From contig JANYDK010000121.1 of assembly GCA_025363655.1 (NCBI GenBank), positions 62,001-126,000 on the forward strand: a DNA stretch of 64,000 nucleotides, in the 5' to 3' direction. Numbering within the stretch: position 1 is the first letter of the stretch; each line of letters begins with the position of its first letter. Positions 24,107 to 32,512 of the stretch are shown here, piece after piece. Made by a program: the position numbers and the translations under genes. The notes beneath the pieces were generated by a model. The model ran no database searches and was not told the origin of the DNA. It saw nothing but the letters and a program-made list of their open reading frames with translations. The DNA is from Deltaproteobacteria bacterium. GTDB taxonomy: Bacteria > Myxococcota_A > Polyangia > Polyangiales > JADJMO01.

Positions 24107-24313
24107 GCAGCCGCGACGCTCGCAGCTCATCACCCGCGACACCTCTCGGCGCGCGCCCGCATCTGAGTCCAATGGCTCGGCTCGCGGAGACGCGAAAGTC
24201 GTGCCGTTGACGAGTCGCGGTTCACTCTTACGTTGACTCCAAGTTGCCGGGTGCGCGTGTCGCCCCGGTCCATTCCCAAACCGGGCGCGGCATCCCCCGC
24301 CCGAGGAGACACC
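24107..24313 (+). other. intergenic region upstream of lon
   Basis: This 207-bp region carries the lon promoter. It contains GTTGAC twice (24206-24211 and 24232-24237), 26 bp apart, but neither copy is followed at 16-18 bp by a good -10 box, and no sigma-32-type element is clear. GAGGAG at 24303-24308 is the lon ribosome-binding site. No small ORF longer than 13 codons was found. Confidence 0.35.
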
Positions 24314-26725
24314 ATGAGCACCAAGCTGCGTGGCGGCGCACCTGCGCCCGAATCACCGTTCCCTCTTCTCCCGCTCCGCACGGGCGTCCTCTTTCCGGGC
24401 ACCGTCATCACGTTGCCGGTGGGTCGTCCTCGCTCGGTGGCGATGCTTCGCACCGTGCGCGAAGGCGACATTCTCGGCGTCGTCGCCCAGCGCGAGCCGA
24501 AGCATGACAACCCCACCAGCGCCGATCTGCACGCCGTGGGCACCTTCGCGCGCATCGCAAACATCGAGCGTGGCAGCAATGGCGAGTATCACCTTTCGCT
24601 CGAAGGAATCGGCCGTTTTTCCCTGGCCGGAATGGTTCGGAGCGATCCGTTCTGGCTCGGTGAAGGGAGCCTGCTCCCCGATCTCGACGGCGACGTCGCC
24701 GAGTCGATCGTGCTCGCCGAAGCGCTGAAGGAGCGCGTCGCCGAGCTGGCTGCGAACGGCGGCTCGCTCGCGCAAATCGCTCGTAGCGACGCAGACCCAG
24801 GCACCTTCGCCGATCAAGTCGCCGGCGCGCTCGGGCTGCCCACCGAACAAGAGGTGAGGGTCCTCGCCGAGGTCAACGTCCCCGCGCGTCTGCGAATGGT
24901 CGCCGAGCTTCTGACGACGGCCAAAGAGGCGAGCGAGGTCAAGCGCAAGATCGAGTCAGAGGTGCGCAAAGAGCTTGGAAAAGGCCAGCGCGAAGCGATC
25001 TTGCGCGAGCAGATGCGGGCCATCCAGAAGGAGCTCGGTGACGACGACAAGCGCGTCGACGAGCTCTCGGCGTTGAAGAAGAAGCTCGACGAAGTCGGTC
25101 TCTCCGAAGAAGCACGCACGGTCGCCGATCGTGAGCTCCGTCGCCTCGAAGGGATGAACGCACAGTCGGCCGAGCACGGCGTGGTTCGCAACTACCTCGA
25201 GCTCATCGCCGAGCTGCCGTGGAGCAAGCGCGCCGATGCCAAGGTCGAGCTCGACGCCGTCGCGAAGAAGCTCGACGAAGATCACTTCGGTCTCGTCGAC
25301 GTCAAGAAGCGCGTCCTCGAGCACATGGCGGTGATGGAATTGGCCGGAAAAACCAGGGCGAGCATCCTCTGCCTGGCCGGTCCTCCCGGCGTCGGCAAGA
25401 CCAGCCTCGGTCAGTCGATCGCCGACGCCACCGGTCGTCCGCTGGTGCGCGTCTCGCTCGGCGGCGTCGGTGACGAGGCCGAACTGCGCGGTCATCGTCG
25501 CACCTACGTCGGTGCGCTCCCCGGCCGCGTGCTTCACGCGATGAAGAAGGCGAAGGTGAAGAACCCGGTCATCCTCTTCGACGAGGTCGACAAGCTCGGC
25601 AGCGGTTGGCGAGGCTCGCCCGAGGCGGCGCTGCTCGAAATCCTCGATCCCGAGCAGAGCAAGACCTTCGTCGATCACTACCTGGAGATTCCCTACGATC
25701 TCTCGGAGGCGCTCTTCATCTGCACCGCCAACGATCTCGGCAATCTCTCGGCGCCGCTTCGCGATCGGCTCGAAATCATCGAGCTCTCGGGCTACACGCT
25801 CGACGAGAAGCTGCACATCGCCAAGTCGCACTTGGTGCCGAAGCAACTGAAAGATCACGCCATCCCGGCGGGCACGCTCGCGGTCACCGATGGCGCGCTC
25901 TCCGCGATCATCCGCGACTACACGCGAGAGGCAGGCGTGCGTCAGCTCGATCGCGAAATCGGCAAGCTCTGCCGCTCGGTCGCGTTGCAGGTGGCTCGCG
26001 CCGTCGATCACAAGATCGCGAACGTCACCGTCGAAGAGAGCGATCTCGTGAAACCGCTCGGGAAAACCCGCTTCTTCAGCGACGTCGCCGAGCGTACTTC
26101 GGTTCCGGGCGTGGCCACCGGGCTCGCGTGGACGCCGGTCGGTGGTGACATCTTGTTCATCGAGACGTCGAAGATGGTCGGCAAAGGTCGTCTCGAAATC
26201 ACCGGACAGCTCGGCGACGTGATGAAGGAGTCGGCCAAGGCGGCGCTCACCTACGTGCGCAGCCACGCCGAGGAGTTGGGCGTCGATGCCGCGGCGCTCG
26301 AGTCGCTCGACCTGCACATCCACGTGCCGGCGGGCGGTGTTCCCAAGGACGGCCCCTCGGCCGGTGTCACCATGTTCACCGCGCTGACGTCGCTCCTCAC
26401 GGGGCGAAAAGTGCGCAGCGACACGGCGATGACGGGCGAGGCCACGCTCCGTGGGCGCGTGCTCCCGGTCGGCGGCATCAAGGCGAAGGTCTTGGCGGCG
26501 CACCGAGCGGGCATCACGCGAGTGGTTTTGCCCGCAAAAAACCGCCGCGATCTCGATGACGTTCCCCAAGCGGCGCGCGAGGTGATGGAGTTCATCTTCA
26601 CCGACGACATGGCCTCTGTCATCAAGGCAGCGCTGGAGGAGACGTCGAGCGAGCCGACCACGACCGCCAAGATCGAACGCGCGATCGTTTCGAGCAGCTC
26701 GGGTGGCGCGGGAGCCGTCATCTAG
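24314..26725 (+). CDS. lon: ATP-dependent Lon protease
   Basis: An 803-residue Lon, normal in length. The N-terminal substrate-binding domain (PLLPLRTGVLFPGTVITLPV) runs to about 200, then a coiled linker (LGKGQREAILREQMRAIQKE). The AAA+ module has Walker A GPPGVGKT (356-363) and pore-loop region RGHRRTYVGALPGR. The protease domain has catalytic Ser682 in PKDGPSAG and Lys725 in the GGIKAKVLAAH segment. ATG 24314 is set by GAGGAG six bases upstream. Lon degrades misfolded and regulatory proteins; myxobacteria have two, and this single copy cannot be assigned to lonV or lonD from sequence alone. Confidence 0.97.
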   Translation: MSTKLRGGAPAPESPFPLLPLRTGVLFPGTVITLPVGRPRSVAMLRTVREGDILGVVAQREPKHDNPTSADLHAVGTFARIANIERGSNGEYHLSLEGIGRFSLAGMVRSDPFWLGEGSLLPDLDGDVAESIVLAEALKERVAELAANGGSLAQIARSDADPGTFADQVAGALGLPTEQEVRVLAEVNVPARLRMVAELLTTAKEASEVKRKIESEVRKELGKGQREAILREQMRAIQKELGDDDKRVDELSALKKKLDEVGLSEEARTVADRELRRLEGMNAQSAEHGVVRNYLELIAELPWSKRADAKVELDAVAKKLDEDHFGLVDVKKRVLEHMAVMELAGKTRASILCLAGPPGVGKTSLGQSIADATGRPLVRVSLGGVGDEAELRGHRRTYVGALPGRVLHAMKKAKVKNPVILFDEVDKLGSGWRGSPEAALLEILDPEQSKTFVDHYLEIPYDLSEALFICTANDLGNLSAPLRDRLEIIELSGYTLDEKLHIAKSHLVPKQLKDHAIPAGTLAVTDGALSAIIRDYTREAGVRQLDREIGKLCRSVALQVARAVDHKIANVTVEESDLVKPLGKTRFFSDVAERTSVPGVATGLAWTPVGGDILFIETSKMVGKGRLEITGQLGDVMKESAKAALTYVRSHAEELGVDAAALESLDLHIHVPAGGVPKDGPSAGVTMFTALTSLLTGRKVRSDTAMTGEATLRGRVLPVGGIKAKVLAAHRAGITRVVLPAKNRRDLDDVPQAAREVMEFIFTDDMASVIKAALEETSSEPTTTAKIERAIVSSSSGGAGAVI

Positions 26726-26803
26726 TCAGCCGCGGGAGGCGGAAACCGTCTGCGACGCTCGTGCGTAGTACTGGGAGACCACGACGCGACGAAGAAGACG
26801 ACG

Positions 26804-26811
26804 AAGGAGGG
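26804..26811 (+). promoter_or_regulatory. strong Shine-Dalgarno for the 34-residue ORF
   Basis: AAGGAGGG lies seven bases before the ATG at 26819, nearly the full anti-Shine-Dalgarno complement. It is the main reason for accepting a gene this short. Confidence 0.75.
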
Positions 26812-26818
26812 ACCATCC

Positions 26819-26923
26819 ATGAACCCGGTGCACATCGAGATCGCCGAGGACACGTACGTCACCAACGAGCAGTCGGTGCTCATCGTCTGGTGGATTCTCA
26901 CCCAAGGACGCGGCTGGGCCTGA
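26819..26923 (+). CDS. 34-residue small protein downstream of lon
   Basis: This short ORF has a near-perfect ribosome-binding site (AAGGAGGG, seven-base spacing) and G or C at about 30 of 33 third positions after the ATG, as in genuine genes here. The peptide is MNPVHIEIAEDTYVTNEQ followed by SVLIVWWILTQGRGWA: an acidic, beta-prone N-terminal half and a short hydrophobic Trp-rich C-terminal half. It could be a small membrane peptide or a peptide precursor; it has no Cys and no GG leader. It lies 93 bp after lon and ends just before a convergent lipoprotein gene. I do not recognise it. Confidence 0.6.
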   Translation: MNPVHIEIAEDTYVTNEQSVLIVWWILTQGRGWA

Positions 26924-26949: not shown

Positions 26950-27351
26950 CTACGGCGTCTGCGCCACGACGGTCACCGGCACCTTGATGCTCCCCTCGGC
27001 ACCAGGGCTGTCGGTGATCTCGAGCGTGCCCGTCCCCGGCGCGCCGCCGACGAGAAAGTACTCGCCGGCGCCGTAGCCGTGGACGAGCGTGCACGTGGTG
27101 TCGTTGCGCACCTGGAGAATGTCCTTCGACGGCTTGTCGTCGACGTAGCCGCTGATGGTGAACGCGACGCCGATGCCCTCCGAGATGGTGATGCCGGCGC
27201 TCGAGGCCTTCACCGGAATCGGCGGCTGATTTTCTGCAATCAGATCGACGCGCGTGAGCTGCGGCGCTGGGTCGTGATGGCATCCGGTGATGACGAGCGC
27301 AGCGGTCGCCGAGACGATCGCGAGCGCGAAGGCTTGCTGGGAACGGCGCAT
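26950..27351 (-). CDS. putative lipoprotein with Ig-like domain
   Basis: The 133-residue product starts MRRSQQAFALAIVSATAALV and its signal peptide ends ITGC, giving a lipid-modified Cys24. The rest is beta-rich (VAFTISGYVDDKPSKDILQV) and ends in an alternating stretch resembling one Ig-like domain. ATG 27351 lies 2 bp after the stop of the upstream lipoprotein gene, so the two are coupled. It is the last gene of a run of lipoproteins. Function unknown. Confidence 0.72.
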   Translation of the reverse strand: MRRSQQAFALAIVSATAALVITGCHHDPAPQLTRVDLIAENQPPIPVKASSAGITISEGIGVAFTISGYVDDKPSKDILQVRNDTTCTLVHGYGAGEYFLVGGAPGTGTLEITDSPGAEGSIKVPVTVVAQTP

Positions 27352-27353
27352 GA

Positions 27354-28133
27354 TCACGTCCCCACCGTGACGGTGACGTCGCCGCTCTTGGCGCCCAGCG
27401 TGACGTGGAGCTTGGCCACGCCCGTCTTCAGGAGCTTGGTTTTGAGGATATTTTGGGTGTCGTCGCCGTCGATGGCGAGCACCGTCGGATCGCTCGTGGT
27501 CCACTTGCAGGTGAGCGCGCCAGCGAGGAGGCGACGGTCTTTGGTCAGCGGGACGACGCGAAAGAGCATGCTCGCGGCGCTGCTCGACGAGAGCGTGAGA
27601 TCGAGACCGGGCACCGTCACCTTGCCCTTGAACGATCCGCCGCCGGTCGGTTCGGTGTTGGCGAACTCGAGGTGATCGACGTCGACGATCTTCAGGTGCA
27701 CCAGATCTTCGTTGCCCGACCAGATGCCGAGGACGGCGACGAAGCCGACGCGTTTGGCCTGATATCCAGGCGCGGCGCCGCTGGTGTCGATGGCCAGGAG
27801 ATCGAGATCTCCGCTCTGCGTGATGCCGGTGCCCGCGCCTTTGGCCTCGTCGGCGTTCGACTTGTAGGCGACGGAGAACGTCGAGCCGACGGCGACGTTG
27901 GGGAGGTTGGTCGACGGATCGACGATCGGGATGTCGGCGTTGTCGTTGCACTGCGCGTCGGCGCCGTGCCCGCAGACGTAGCTGAACTTGCCGCGTCCGA
28001 GCTCACCCGGCTGCACGCCGTGCGTCGGATCGTCGGTCTTCTTGCAGCCTGTGAGTGTGACGAGTGCGCCGAGTGCGCTGAGCAGACCGAGCGTGGTCAA
28101 CAGCCTCGACGAGGTGATCGTGAAACGTGCCAT
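27354..28133 (-). CDS. putative lipoprotein
   Basis: A 259-residue lipoprotein: signal MARFTITSSRLLTTLGLLSA, lipobox LTGC at about residue 30. A Cys pair (YVCGHGADAQCN) near residue 55 may form a disulfide. The C-terminal region is beta-strand-rich with an Ig-like end (LKTGVAKLHVTLGAKSGDVT). The start ATG is preceded by GAGGGGG. It sits in the lipoprotein cluster, coupled to the next gene by a 2-bp gap. No enzyme motif is visible; surface structure or ligand binding is inferred. Confidence 0.72.
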   Translation of the reverse strand: MARFTITSSRLLTTLGLLSALGALVTLTGCKKTDDPTHGVQPGELGRGKFSYVCGHGADAQCNDNADIPIVDPSTNLPNVAVGSTFSVAYKSNADEAKGAGTGITQSGDLDLLAIDTSGAAPGYQAKRVGFVAVLGIWSGNEDLVHLKIVDVDHLEFANTEPTGGGSFKGKVTVPGLDLTLSSSSAASMLFRVVPLTKDRRLLAGALTCKWTTSDPTVLAIDGDDTQNILKTKLLKTGVAKLHVTLGAKSGDVTVTVGT

Positions 28134-28172
28134 CGGAACCCCCCTCGGGCCGAGCTTACGTCACTACGACCG

Positions 28173-29024
28173 TCAGAGACAGGCCCCGTTGGTAGCCCCA
28201 GGAGTGCCATTCTGTTCGCAAAAATCAGCGGTATTGTCGTTGCTGTCGGCGGCGCCGGGCCGGCGTCCGAGTGTATGACCGACCGCTGTCGGCAGAGGGC
28301 GTGGGGCGGCTTCGCTCGTCGCCTTCGGAGCCGTCGTCGGCGCTGGAATCGCGGCGCCCCAGCCGAGCACGTCGAGGAGCGTCGTCGTCGCGCCGACGTC
28401 GACGAGCTGCACCGAGCCCGCGGTGTTGTCGAGACCCCACTTGGAGATGCCGACGGTCTCATCGACATGCGGCGCGGTGAAGATCTTCGAGACCGAAGCG
28501 CCGCCGACGACCCAGAGACCGCTCGCCGGAATGATCGCGCCGGCGCCGGAGATCGCGACCTCGCCGGTGACCTTGCCGGTGCTGTCGACGAGCCGCAGGT
28601 GGAGCGTCTCGAGCGAGGTCCCGACCGGGCCGCGCAGCTCGACGTACTCGACCGCGTCCCCCGAGATGTCGCGATCGACGTAGATCTCCTCGACGCGAAC
28701 GGCGGTGACCGGCGCAGCATCGCTGGAGACGTCTTTCGCAGCGTCGGGCGCGGCGTCCGCCGTCGTGTCTGCGCTCGTGTCGGACACTGCATCAGGGCCG
28801 CCATCGGTCGCCCCATCGGACGTCGTGGCGGTGTCGGTCGCATCGGTCGCATCGGTCGCATCGACCGCGCTCGCGTCGACGGCGCCATCGACCGCGCTCG
28901 CGTCGAGAGCATGCGTGTCGCCACCGCCATCGGTAAGCGTCGTGCCGCCCGAATCGTCACTGGCTGCACAGGCGCTGACCACGAGCGCCGACGCCACAAA
29001 CATAACCATACGATGCATCTTCAT
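28173..29024 (-). CDS. lipoprotein with lamin-tail-like (LTD) domain
   Basis: This 283-residue lipoprotein has signal MKMHRMVMFVASALVVSAC (Cys19) and an 85-residue Asp/Ala/Thr/Ser-rich spacer with short repeats (DASAVDGAVDASAVDATDAT). The C-terminal domain of about 175 residues matches lamin-tail domains: GDAVEYVELRGPVGTSLETL with the typical LGRRPGAADSNDNTADF and GTPGATN ending. LTDs occur in bacterial surface proteins and extracellular nucleases. The ATG has GAGG upstream. It follows the OB-fold-like lipoprotein gene by 14 bp in one operon. Confidence 0.82.
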   Translation of the reverse strand: MKMHRMVMFVASALVVSACAASDDSGGTTLTDGGGDTHALDASAVDGAVDASAVDATDATDATDTATTSDGATDGGPDAVSDTSADTTADAAPDAAKDVSSDAAPVTAVRVEEIYVDRDISGDAVEYVELRGPVGTSLETLHLRLVDSTGKVTGEVAISGAGAIIPASGLWVVGGASVSKIFTAPHVDETVGISKWGLDNTAGSVQLVDVGATTTLLDVLGWGAAIPAPTTAPKATSEAAPRPLPTAVGHTLGRRPGAADSNDNTADFCEQNGTPGATNGACL

Positions 29025-29038
29025 TCCCAGCCTCGATT

Positions 29039-30073
29039 TCAAGGCTTGGTGATGTCGGCGCCGGTGCGCGGGTAGAGCTCGAGGTACTTGGTCGGCACGC
29101 CGGCGTCGGCGGCGGAGGGGATGAAGACCCCGAAGACGCCGACGATCGACGTGAAGTTGATCTTGGTCCCGCCGGTGAAGCCGAGCCCTGCGAATGTGCC
29201 GCCGGGGAGAAAGAACGGGCTCAAGCTGACGACGCTCGAGGTGCCGGCGTCGGTGCCCGCGTCGAAACCGCCGGTGGTGTAGATGCCGAACGTCTCGGTC
29301 GAGACCGAAGTCGGCGTGCCGGAGATGCCGGTGAGCTTCACCAGCACCGGGCCGTACGTCGTCTCGTAGGCGGCGACGGAGTTGAGATCGCTCAGCGTCG
29401 CATCGACGGGGACGACCGTGCCGGTGCCCGTCTTCTTGATGCAACCGCGGAGCAAATCGTTGACCTCGAGGAGGATCTCGTTCTGCCCGCCGACGTTGTA
29501 GCGCCAGCCATAGCCAGCGGTGTCGACCTTGTCGCCGACGGCGATGCCGGTGAAGTGCGTGCCGCCCGCGGCCGAGACGAAGATCTTGATTGCGTGGTGT
29601 GCGGCGGTGCCGAGTGACGTGTAGCTGGTCGCGTCGGCGAGGAAGATTTGGCAGGCCTTGCCGGCGCTGCATCCGCCCTGCGAGACCGCCGTGACGTACG
29701 CGCCCGAGACCCAGTCGAACGCCGGCTTGGTGGCGCTCGCGGTCCAGATGGCGTCGATCGTCGTCGTCAGCGTGCCGGCCGGCTGCGCGTCGCACGTCGG
29801 CCAAGGCGCAGGCGCATCGGAGTCGCCGCTTCCACCGTCGGTGGTCGAGGTGTCAGCGGCGGTATCGGTGCCGACGAGCGTGTCGTCGACGTTGGTGTCG
29901 TCCTTCACGTCGGTCGCGGTGTCGGGCTTCGAAGTGTCGGTGCCGACGTCGCTCGTGGCATCGACGCCGGTGTCGGCCTGCGTGACCTCACCATCGGCTC
30001 CGCCGCATCCCGCGACGACACTGGCAAAGACGACTGCGAACAAAGAAGAGGCGCACGTTCCGCGAAAGAGCAT
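29039..30073 (-). CDS. lipoprotein with OB-fold-like domain
   Basis: The 344-residue lipoprotein has signal MLFRGTCASSLFAVVFASVVAGC (Cys23) and an Asp/Thr-rich spacer to about residue 95. The beta-rich domain after it alternates YVTAVSQ, CQIFLADATSY, IKIFVSAAGG and GIAVGDKVDTAGYGWRYN, a pattern like the OB-folds that accompany lamin-tail domains in secreted nucleases. No nuclease residues are seen. Next door is an LTD lipoprotein, so the pair may be two halves of a surface module. The fold call is inference. Confidence 0.68.
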   Translation of the reverse strand: MLFRGTCASSLFAVVFASVVAGCGGADGEVTQADTGVDATSDVGTDTSKPDTATDVKDDTNVDDTLVGTDTAADTSTTDGGSGDSDAPAPWPTCDAQPAGTLTTTIDAIWTASATKPAFDWVSGAYVTAVSQGGCSAGKACQIFLADATSYTSLGTAAHHAIKIFVSAAGGTHFTGIAVGDKVDTAGYGWRYNVGGQNEILLEVNDLLRGCIKKTGTGTVVPVDATLSDLNSVAAYETTYGPVLVKLTGISGTPTSVSTETFGIYTTGGFDAGTDAGTSSVVSLSPFFLPGGTFAGLGFTGGTKINFTSIVGVFGVFIPSAADAGVPTKYLELYPRTGADITKP

Positions 30074-30113
30074 GTGCGCTCTATACGAGAAACCGTGCGC
30101 CTCTGCATGGATT

Positions 30114-30136
30114 CGGCCAGGACGGATGCCTGGCCG
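30114..30136. repeat. 8-bp perfect hairpin between two lipoprotein genes
   Basis: CGGCCAGG and CCTGGCCG pair exactly around a 7-nt loop, 13 bp past the stop of the upstream (30150-31268) lipoprotein gene. It has no T-tract, so it is at best a weak or Rho-assisted terminator. Confidence 0.4.
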
Positions 30137-30149
30137 CCTCCGCTCGGAT

Positions 30150-31268
30150 TCAGTGCGGAATGATGTTCTCGAGATCGCTCTCCTTCGCGTCGACGAGCGT
30201 CTGGATGAGATCGGAGAGGTGCTTGTTCGACACCTTGGCGGTGACGGTCACCTTGCTGCCGTCGATCTCGAGGGTGGTCGCCTTGAGGTCGTCGGCGATG
30301 GCGGCGAGCGGCCCCTTCTTCAACTGACCGGCGAGCTGGTCGAGGCCTTCCTTGGCCTTCGCTTCGATCTTGTCGGAGTCGCCCTTGATCTGCGCGGCGG
30401 CCTTGCCCGAGAGCTCGGCGACGATCTTGAGCTCGACGGCGTCGCTCTTCTCGTTGAGCTCGACGGTGACGCTGTCGACGCCGTCTTTCTTCGAGGCGCC
30501 GTGGATGGCGACGAGGCGGCCTTCCTTCACGTCCCACGACGAGGAGACGTCGTTCGACTTCGCGAGCGTGCCGAAATCGTCGGCGTCTTCGGTGGCGACG
30601 AAGACGTTGGGCGTGACCATCCCGAGCAGGACCTTGTCCTTGCCCTGGATGTACGAGACGCCGTCGGCGTCCTTCTTCTTCATCGTCTCGCCGTTCTTCT
30701 CGCCGATCTTGCTGATCGTGCCGAGGACGTCCTTGCCGGCGAAATCACCGCCGATGCCGATGATGAAGTTCTTCTCGCCCTTCATGCACATGGCGATTTC
30801 GCGGATGTCCGCGCCCGGATCGATCTTCGCCTTCTTCAGGATGTCGAGGACCTCTTCGGCCTTCTCGCCGTCCTTGCCCTTCATCGCTTGCACCAGCTTG
30901 TCGTCGAGGCTGCCGACGTTCTTCTTGATCGCCGGCTCTTTGGCGATGCCGCCGACGTCGATGAAGATGGTGGCCATCTCGCACTTCTTCGGCATGTGCT
31001 TGAGCACGTCGCCGCGCGCGTAGGCCTTGCCGTCGCCGCCGCCCTTGTCGTCGTCGTCGTCGCCGTCCTTCGACTTCTTCTTGTCGTCGTCCTTCGACTT
31101 CTTGCCGTCGGACTCTTTGTCGTCGTCCTTCGACTTCTTCTTGTCGGTCTTCTTGTCGTCGTCTTTCTTGTCCGACGAGTCGTCCTTCTTCGGGCAACCG
31201 GCGATCGGCAACGTGAGCGCGAGCGCTCCCAACATCATCGCCCAGCGAGCCTTCTTCACGAACGTCAT
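30150..31268 (-). CDS. lipoprotein with Lys/Asp-rich linker and repeated alpha/beta domain
   Basis: A 372-residue lipoprotein: signal MTFVKKARWAMMLGALALTL ending IAGC (Cys25). A highly charged linker of alternating Lys and Asp runs (about residues 27-80) is followed by a domain of about 290 residues. That domain seems built of similar halves: CEMATIFIDVGGIAKEPAIK and GRLVAIHGASKKDGVDSVTV are beta-alpha segments of comparable pattern. GGAGGAG precedes the ATG. It is divergent from pilT with 110 bp between. No enzyme signature is visible. The linker could span the envelope by charge repulsion; function unknown. Confidence 0.7.
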   Translation of the reverse strand: MTFVKKARWAMMLGALALTLPIAGCPKKDDSSDKKDDDKKTDKKKSKDDDKESDGKKSKDDDKKKSKDGDDDDDKGGGDGKAYARGDVLKHMPKKCEMATIFIDVGGIAKEPAIKKNVGSLDDKLVQAMKGKDGEKAEEVLDILKKAKIDPGADIREIAMCMKGEKNFIIGIGGDFAGKDVLGTISKIGEKNGETMKKKDADGVSYIQGKDKVLLGMVTPNVFVATEDADDFGTLAKSNDVSSSWDVKEGRLVAIHGASKKDGVDSVTVELNEKSDAVELKIVAELSGKAAAQIKGDSDKIEAKAKEGLDQLAGQLKKGPLAAIADDLKATTLEIDGSKVTVTAKVSNKHLSDLIQTLVDAKESDLENIIPH

Positions 31269-31378: not shown

Positions 31379-32512
31379 ATGAACGCCGGTCCGCCGAACG
31401 AGCTGAGGGTCACGCTTCACCAGCTGCTGAAGACGATGATCGACAAGGGGGCGAGCGACCTCCACATCACCACCGGCACGGCGCCGCTCCTCCGCATCGA
31501 CGGCTCGGTCGTGCCCCTCAAGCTCCCGCCGCTCTCGCCGCAAGACACCAAACAGCTCATTTACTCGGTGCTCACCGAGGAGCAGAAGGTGCACTTCGAG
31601 AAGAGCAACGAGCTCGATCTCTCGTTCGGCGTGAAGAACCTCTCCCGTTTCCGTTGCAACGTCTTCATGCAGCGCGGCGCCATCAGCGCAGCATTTCGCG
31701 CCATTCCGTTCAAGATTCTCTCGTTCGACGAGCTCGGGCTCCCGCCTGCCGTCCAAGACCTCTGCTTCAAGCCGCGCGGTCTCGTGCTCATCACCGGCGC
31801 CACCGGCTCCGGCAAGTCGACGACGCTGGCGTCGATCATCGACAAGATCAACACCGAGACGCGTCAGCACATCATGACGATCGAAGACCCGATCGAGTAC
31901 CTCCACCCGCACAAAATGTGCGTGGTGAACCAACGCGAGGTCGGTCAGGACACGGCGTCGTTCAAGACCGCGCTCAAGTACGTCCTCCGCCAAGACCCGG
32001 ACGTCGTCCTCCTCGGAGAAATGCGTGACCTCGAGACCGTCGAGGCGGCGCTCACCATCGCCGAGACCGGTCACTTGGTCTTCGCCACCCTCCACACCAA
32101 CTCGTGCGTGCAGACCATCAACCGCATCCTCGACGTCTTCCCGTCGAATCAGCAGCCGCAGATTCACGCGCAGCTCTCGTTCACGTTGCAAGGCGTCGTC
32201 TCGCAGGCGCTCTTGCCCAGGCTCGGTCAACCTGGTCGCTGCCTCGGCCTCGAGATCATGATCCCGAACCCCGCCATTCGAAACTTGATTCGCGAGGACA
32301 AGGTCCACCAGATCTATTCGCAGATGCAGGTCGGCCAAGAGAAGTACGGCATGCAGACGTTCAACCAGAGCCTCTTCAGCCTCTACACGCGCCGAATGGT
32401 GTCGCTCGAAGAGGCGATGGGTCGCTCGAGCGATCCGGACGAGCTGAAGTCGATGATCGATCGCGGCTCGGTGAGCTCGGCCGCCGGCGGAATGAACCGA
32501 CCTCGCTCTTGA
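31379..32512 (+). CDS. pilT: PilT-type twitching motility ATPase
   Basis: A 377-residue hexameric ATPase that retracts type IV pili. N-terminal PAS-like region includes GASDLHITTGTAPLLRIDG; Walker A is GATGSGKST, the Asp box is HIMTIEDPIEYL, Walker B is DVVLLGEMRD, and the His box is LVFATLHTNSC. The C-terminal AIRNLIRE motif, required for retraction, is present. Length is normal. It stands alone, without pilB or pilC, so it may be a paralogue of a main pilT elsewhere. The start ATG lacks a strong ribosome-binding site. Confidence 0.95.
   Translation: MNAGPPNELRVTLHQLLKTMIDKGASDLHITTGTAPLLRIDGSVVPLKLPPLSPQDTKQLIYSVLTEEQKVHFEKSNELDLSFGVKNLSRFRCNVFMQRGAISAAFRAIPFKILSFDELGLPPAVQDLCFKPRGLVLITGATGSGKSTTLASIIDKINTETRQHIMTIEDPIEYLHPHKMCVVNQREVGQDTASFKTALKYVLRQDPDVVLLGEMRDLETVEAALTIAETGHLVFATLHTNSCVQTINRILDVFPSNQQPQIHAQLSFTLQGVVSQALLPRLGQPGRCLGLEIMIPNPAIRNLIREDKVHQIYSQMQVGQEKYGMQTFNQSLFSLYTRRMVSLEEAMGRSSDPDELKSMIDRGSVSSAAGGMNRPRS

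Follow-up and report, generated by a model that had tools for sequence, protein, structure and literature searches.

Intergenic open reading frames (ORFs) of 15–70 codons, partly hydrophobic, minimally structured and of unannotated function, have been collected from bacteria as a cryptic microproteome (Fesenko et al., 2024, The Cryptic Bacterial Microproteome; PMC11188072). Translated intergenic ORFs are also known from E. coli O157:H7 Sakai, where they have a mean length of 127 bp, ribosome-profiling support and mostly unusual composition (PMC5597208). A small protein acting directly on the Lon protease has been described in Caulobacter; this Lon activator, LarA, has 89 residues, ends in His and has orthologues in other alpha-proteobacteria (PMC10665427). 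Here we describe a 34-codon ORF downstream of lon in a Deltaproteobacteria bacterium of the order Polyangiales (GCA_025363655.1, contig JANYDK010000121.1); the whole stretch of DNA that was analysed, 64,000 nucleotides in length, is called the window below. The combination by which intergenic microproteins are recognised, a coding-like sequence with an initiation signal, is present in this ORF. Like the microproteins of Fesenko et al. (2024), it is short, intergenic, partly hydrophobic and minimally structured, but their clusters were chosen for purifying selection in a well-sampled family, whereas the ORF described here is a single sequence (PMC11188072). It also resembles the Sakai ORFs in being short (105 bp) and lacking an annotated homologue, although those rest on ribosome profiling and this one on sequence statistics with genome-like codon usage (PMC5597208). 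With LarA its product shares small size and hydrophobicity in the C-terminal part, which might contact Lon, but it differs from LarA in having only 34 residues, in being an orphan and in ending with GRGWA (PMC10665427). Judged from its sequence, the ORF is probably an orphan addition to the intergenic microproteins, a kind already known (PMC11188072; PMC5597208).

The ORF lies in the gap between lon, whose stop is at 26725, and a convergent gene that ends at 26950; it is on the same strand as lon and starts 93 nt past the lon stop (Table 1). It runs for 105 bp from an ATG at 26819 to a TGA at 26921–26923. The AAGGAGG of the upstream Shine-Dalgarno (SD) sequence AAGGAGGG pairs with the anti-SD complement over 7 uninterrupted bases and is separated from the ATG by the 7-nt spacer ACCATCC. 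G or C occupies the third position in 30 of the 33 codons after the ATG, the exceptions being ATT, CAA and GGA. Re-reading of the sequence thus confirmed what the preliminary description had reported of this site, namely the SD, its seven-base spacing, the 34 codons and the G or C at about 30 of 33 third positions.

Table 1. Positions of the small ORF, its signals and the adjoining genes in the window.
Feature	Position	Strand	Basis
Shine-Dalgarno sequence AAGGAGGG	26804–26811	+	Direct reading; 7-base uninterrupted match to the anti-SD complement
34-codon ORF MNPVHIEIAEDTYVTNEQSVLIVWWILTQGRGWA, probable small protein gene	26819–26923	+	Coding score; synonymous codon test; no family match
Translation initiation region, unfolded, purine-rich	26780–26840	+	Folding compared with shuffles, gene starts and random ATGs
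Codons of the hydrophobic Trp-rich run VLIVWWILT (residues 20–28)	26876–26902	+	Kyte-Doolittle; single-sequence AlphaFold2 model
lon, ATP-dependent protease La, upstream neighbour	24233–26725 (true start perhaps 24314)	+	Pfam LON_substr_bdg, AAA, Lon_lid, Lon_C
Convergent lineage-specific gene, 133 aa, lipoprotein-like N-terminus	26950–27351	-	Gene model; 55 relatives without homologue

Coding potential was scored with a third-order, frame-aware model trained on long ORFs from 400 kb of the same genome (GC3 0.84). The null was 111.7 Mb of intergenic DNA simulated by an order-2 Markov model, which yields 123,633 ATG ORFs of 30–40 codons. The small ORF scores +12.3 nats, a value reached by none of the 123,633 null ORFs (mean -6.1, sd 3.8, maximum 9.4); simulated nulls are simplifications and the ORF was selected out of a large window, yet it clears the null by a wide margin. 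Only this frame, and only between the ATG and the stop, carries the signal: scores are -18.6 and -14.9 in the alternative frames and -7.6, +0.6 and -32.6 in the reverse ones, and within the frame the score is -4.9 upstream of the ORF, +7.3 in its first half, +5.1 in its second half and -3.0 downstream. Retraining of the model without lon and the neighbouring plus-strand genes leaves the score unchanged at 12.2. Among the real intergenic ATG ORFs of 25–60 codons in 400 kb (n = 154), the small ORF alone combines a score of at least 12 with an SD of at least 6, and no ORF with this combination occurs in 60 simulated intergenic sets. Redrawing of the synonymous codons by base composition, with the peptide fixed, gives P = 0.00015, and the codon usage is ordinary and genome-like.

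Among 236 genes predicted in this genome, 3 are preceded by an SD of at least 7 bases, and among the null ORFs (n = 123,633) the share is 0.25%; the SD of the small ORF is stronger than that at nearly all predicted genes in the 400 kb sample. Its start region is also unusually open. In the interval 26780–26840, folding is equalled or exceeded by 199 of 200 shuffles, and the 60-nt start window has a dG of -8.0 kcal/mol, whereas the median is -16.7 for gene starts and -19.9 for random ATGs. The coding score, the rarity of the SD, the confinement of the signal, the choice of codons and the open start together make it quite probable that 26819–26923 is a real translated gene, a coding status that is statistical in kind. 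The earlier judgement that such a combination is unlikely by chance was borne out by the score, the SD rarity and the synonymous-only test.

The peptide, MNPVHIEIAEDTYVTNEQSVLIVWWILTQGRGWA, has 34 residues, a mass of 3.97 kDa, a pI of about 4.4 and a net charge of -3. Its hydrophobic run, VLIVWWIL(T), comprises 8–9 residues with a Kyte-Doolittle value of 2.5 over 9 residues; the best 19-residue mean is 0.47, and the hydrophobic moments are low. The acidic character and the short Trp-rich hydrophobic part noticed beforehand were therefore found again, and so was the absence of a recognised family, the peptide having no match in Pfam, PHROG, NCBIfam or solved structures at E <= 10. The suggestion of a small membrane protein found no support, given the length of the run and the low 19-residue mean: a single-span membrane protein has a hydrophobic segment of about 18–20 residues, and a classical membrane protein is unlikely. 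AlphaFold2 with the single sequence predicts one helix at residues 10–29, with a mean pLDDT of 76 and about 90 for residues 21–30; this model, built without an alignment, is a hint only, and a fold search of the PDB with it gave no match. Other classes were considered as well. The hydrophobic stretch is too short for a type I toxin, the neighbouring genes scanned give no match to a modification enzyme as would accompany a RiPP precursor, and an RNA element is disfavoured by the lack of an Rfam match and by folding of the region no better than shuffles.

Searches with the peptide revealed no homologue in 183 genomes of the order, four others of the same family among them, and none in a phylum-wide set of 377 genomes (best E 0.058 per genome), in phages and viral contigs, or in plasmids, which gave one chance-level match (E 2). 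The weak matches reach 34–52% over about 16–32 residues at E 0.06–0.4 per genome; their segments look unrelated, and the matches look like chance. A DNA search with the intergenic stretch returned only matches of 20–55 bases, as composition would give. The genome contains three more full-length lon genes (G000 C41, C25 and C123, besides C106), 45–51% identical to the window lon, and no second copy of the peptide, so that these three have no companion ORF. Nine readable lon relatives from other genera (L010–L015, L041, L042 and L043; a further one, L019, ends at a contig edge and is outside the nine) likewise have no counterpart downstream, where the DNA is different in each of the nine. The nearest Lon proteins among these relatives are only about 72% identical, and in a Lon search of genome contigs the closest among the matches listed is 68% identical. 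Because the genomes searched include no second member of the genus, the missing homologues are weak evidence against the gene. They also say little on its gene status, since the gene-like neighbours of 133 and 259 residues are almost equally unmatched; the latter (27354–28133) has one weak match, 30% identical, among 55 relatives and is otherwise without homologue. The stretch after lon appears to be a lineage-specific zone, and comparison of the neighbouring proteins suggests the same for the minus-strand block beyond it.

The principal rival to a functional small gene is that the ORF is the N-terminal remnant of a longer gene, cut by a rearrangement at the junction between lon and the lipoprotein-like gene, which kept its codon bias and SD and lost its function. 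The DNA after lon varies among same-family genomes and is thus a site of turnover, and a codon bias as strong as this is more easily explained by an old coding origin than by de novo birth; indeed, such codon adaptation speaks against a recent origin in random DNA and thereby leaves a truncated gene as the chief competitor. However, the searches turned up no convincing match to a longer protein, and the ORF retains an intact SD, start and stop, so that we regard a remnant as unlikely. A random open frame with an SD-like sequence and GC3-rich composition is a still weaker candidate: no conservation could be shown and the pick was made out of a large window, but the simulations described above produced neither an ORF of this score nor a set containing one with this combination, and three more signals, the SD, the unfolded start and the frame-confined coding signal, agree against it. 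The least probable reading, scarcely worth entertaining, is a regulatory leader peptide whose Trp codons, three in number and two of them in tandem, would attenuate a downstream gene. The genes from 26950 to 31268 are all encoded on the minus strand, and a plus-strand gene begins only at 31379, leaving 4.4 kb without a same-strand gene, and this orientation excludes a leader; moreover, a terminator-like structure was not found, Rfam gave no match and the folding of the RNA does not exceed that of shuffles.

The preliminary description had also proposed a Lon-related regulator. By analogy with Caulobacter LarA, a small hydrophobic peptide made together with Lon might bind the protease as a dedicated regulator or decoy and alter its activity. 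The ORF adjoins lon, its co-transcription is probable, and hydrophobic segments are typical features of Lon recognition (PMC10665427; PMC11986505). On the other hand, adjacency by itself is weak, nothing alike follows the nine readable lon relatives of other genera or occurs elsewhere in the order, the three other lon genes have no copy beside them, and the C-terminus GRGWA lacks the C-terminal His of SulA/LarA-type degrons (PMC10665427; PMC11986505). A dedicated Lon regulator accordingly seems improbable, somewhat more so than a remnant, and the sequences compared leave a conserved one unsupported. A more specific version, in which a lineage-specific microprotein from the lon mRNA, unrelated to known adaptors, would bind its cognate Lon through the Trp-rich stretch and tune its activity, must be considered a long shot.

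We therefore return to a real, lineage-restricted small gene as the best explanation. The ORF would be read from the lon transcript; we infer this co-transcription from the shared strand, the 93-nt gap and the result of a search between the lon stop at 26725 and the ORF, in which no terminator-like site was found. As the genes downstream are convergent, the ORF ends its unit and would be the last gene on that transcript. Translation would be driven by its own strong and open ribosome-binding site, which means that synthesis of the peptide would not depend on translation of lon. The predicted product, acidic and 34 residues long, would have a short helix with VLIVWWIL as the C-terminal half of that helix, and could serve as a small accessory or regulatory peptide. 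Since VLIVWWIL is too short for a membrane span, the likeliest action is docking by the hydrophobic stretch, in which the Trp-rich residues may contact a partner protein or a membrane surface; we put forward this mode of action, including any binding, tentatively. The gene is a well-supported real small gene of the type that annotation averse to short ORFs may miss, and small-protein data are scarce for its lineage, which to judge from the relatives of its Lon is apparently Polyangiales-like Myxococcota. If it were tied to Lon, to which adjacency alone points, it would be a new regulator of a central protease. It may also be of general use that codon signal, SD and start openness jointly separate one ORF from more than 100,000 simulated ones without conservation.

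Several further observations were made in the same material. In a same-family genome (G002), lon (L011) is followed at about 1186–1360 on the minus strand by a frame of about 57 residues with a GTG start, hydrophobic and of unrelated sequence (VAAGIWNLLFGLAALAAG...). On the contig of the window but outside it (G000:C106, about 249.6–249.8 kb), a 59-codon hydrophobic intergenic ORF (MIVELILHFTCLMPLAWLFG...) scores 22.3 and has no recognisable SD. The minus-strand genes at 26950–29024 are consecutive and have no Pfam match, and the first two of them are lipoprotein-like. Upstream of lon, the minus-strand segment 20358–22833 encodes a DUF790 protein (PF05626), which we take to be Bax1-like, directly after an XPB-like helicase (ResIII, ERCC3_RAD25_C), which gives this bacterium an XPB-Bax1 repair pair of archaeal type.
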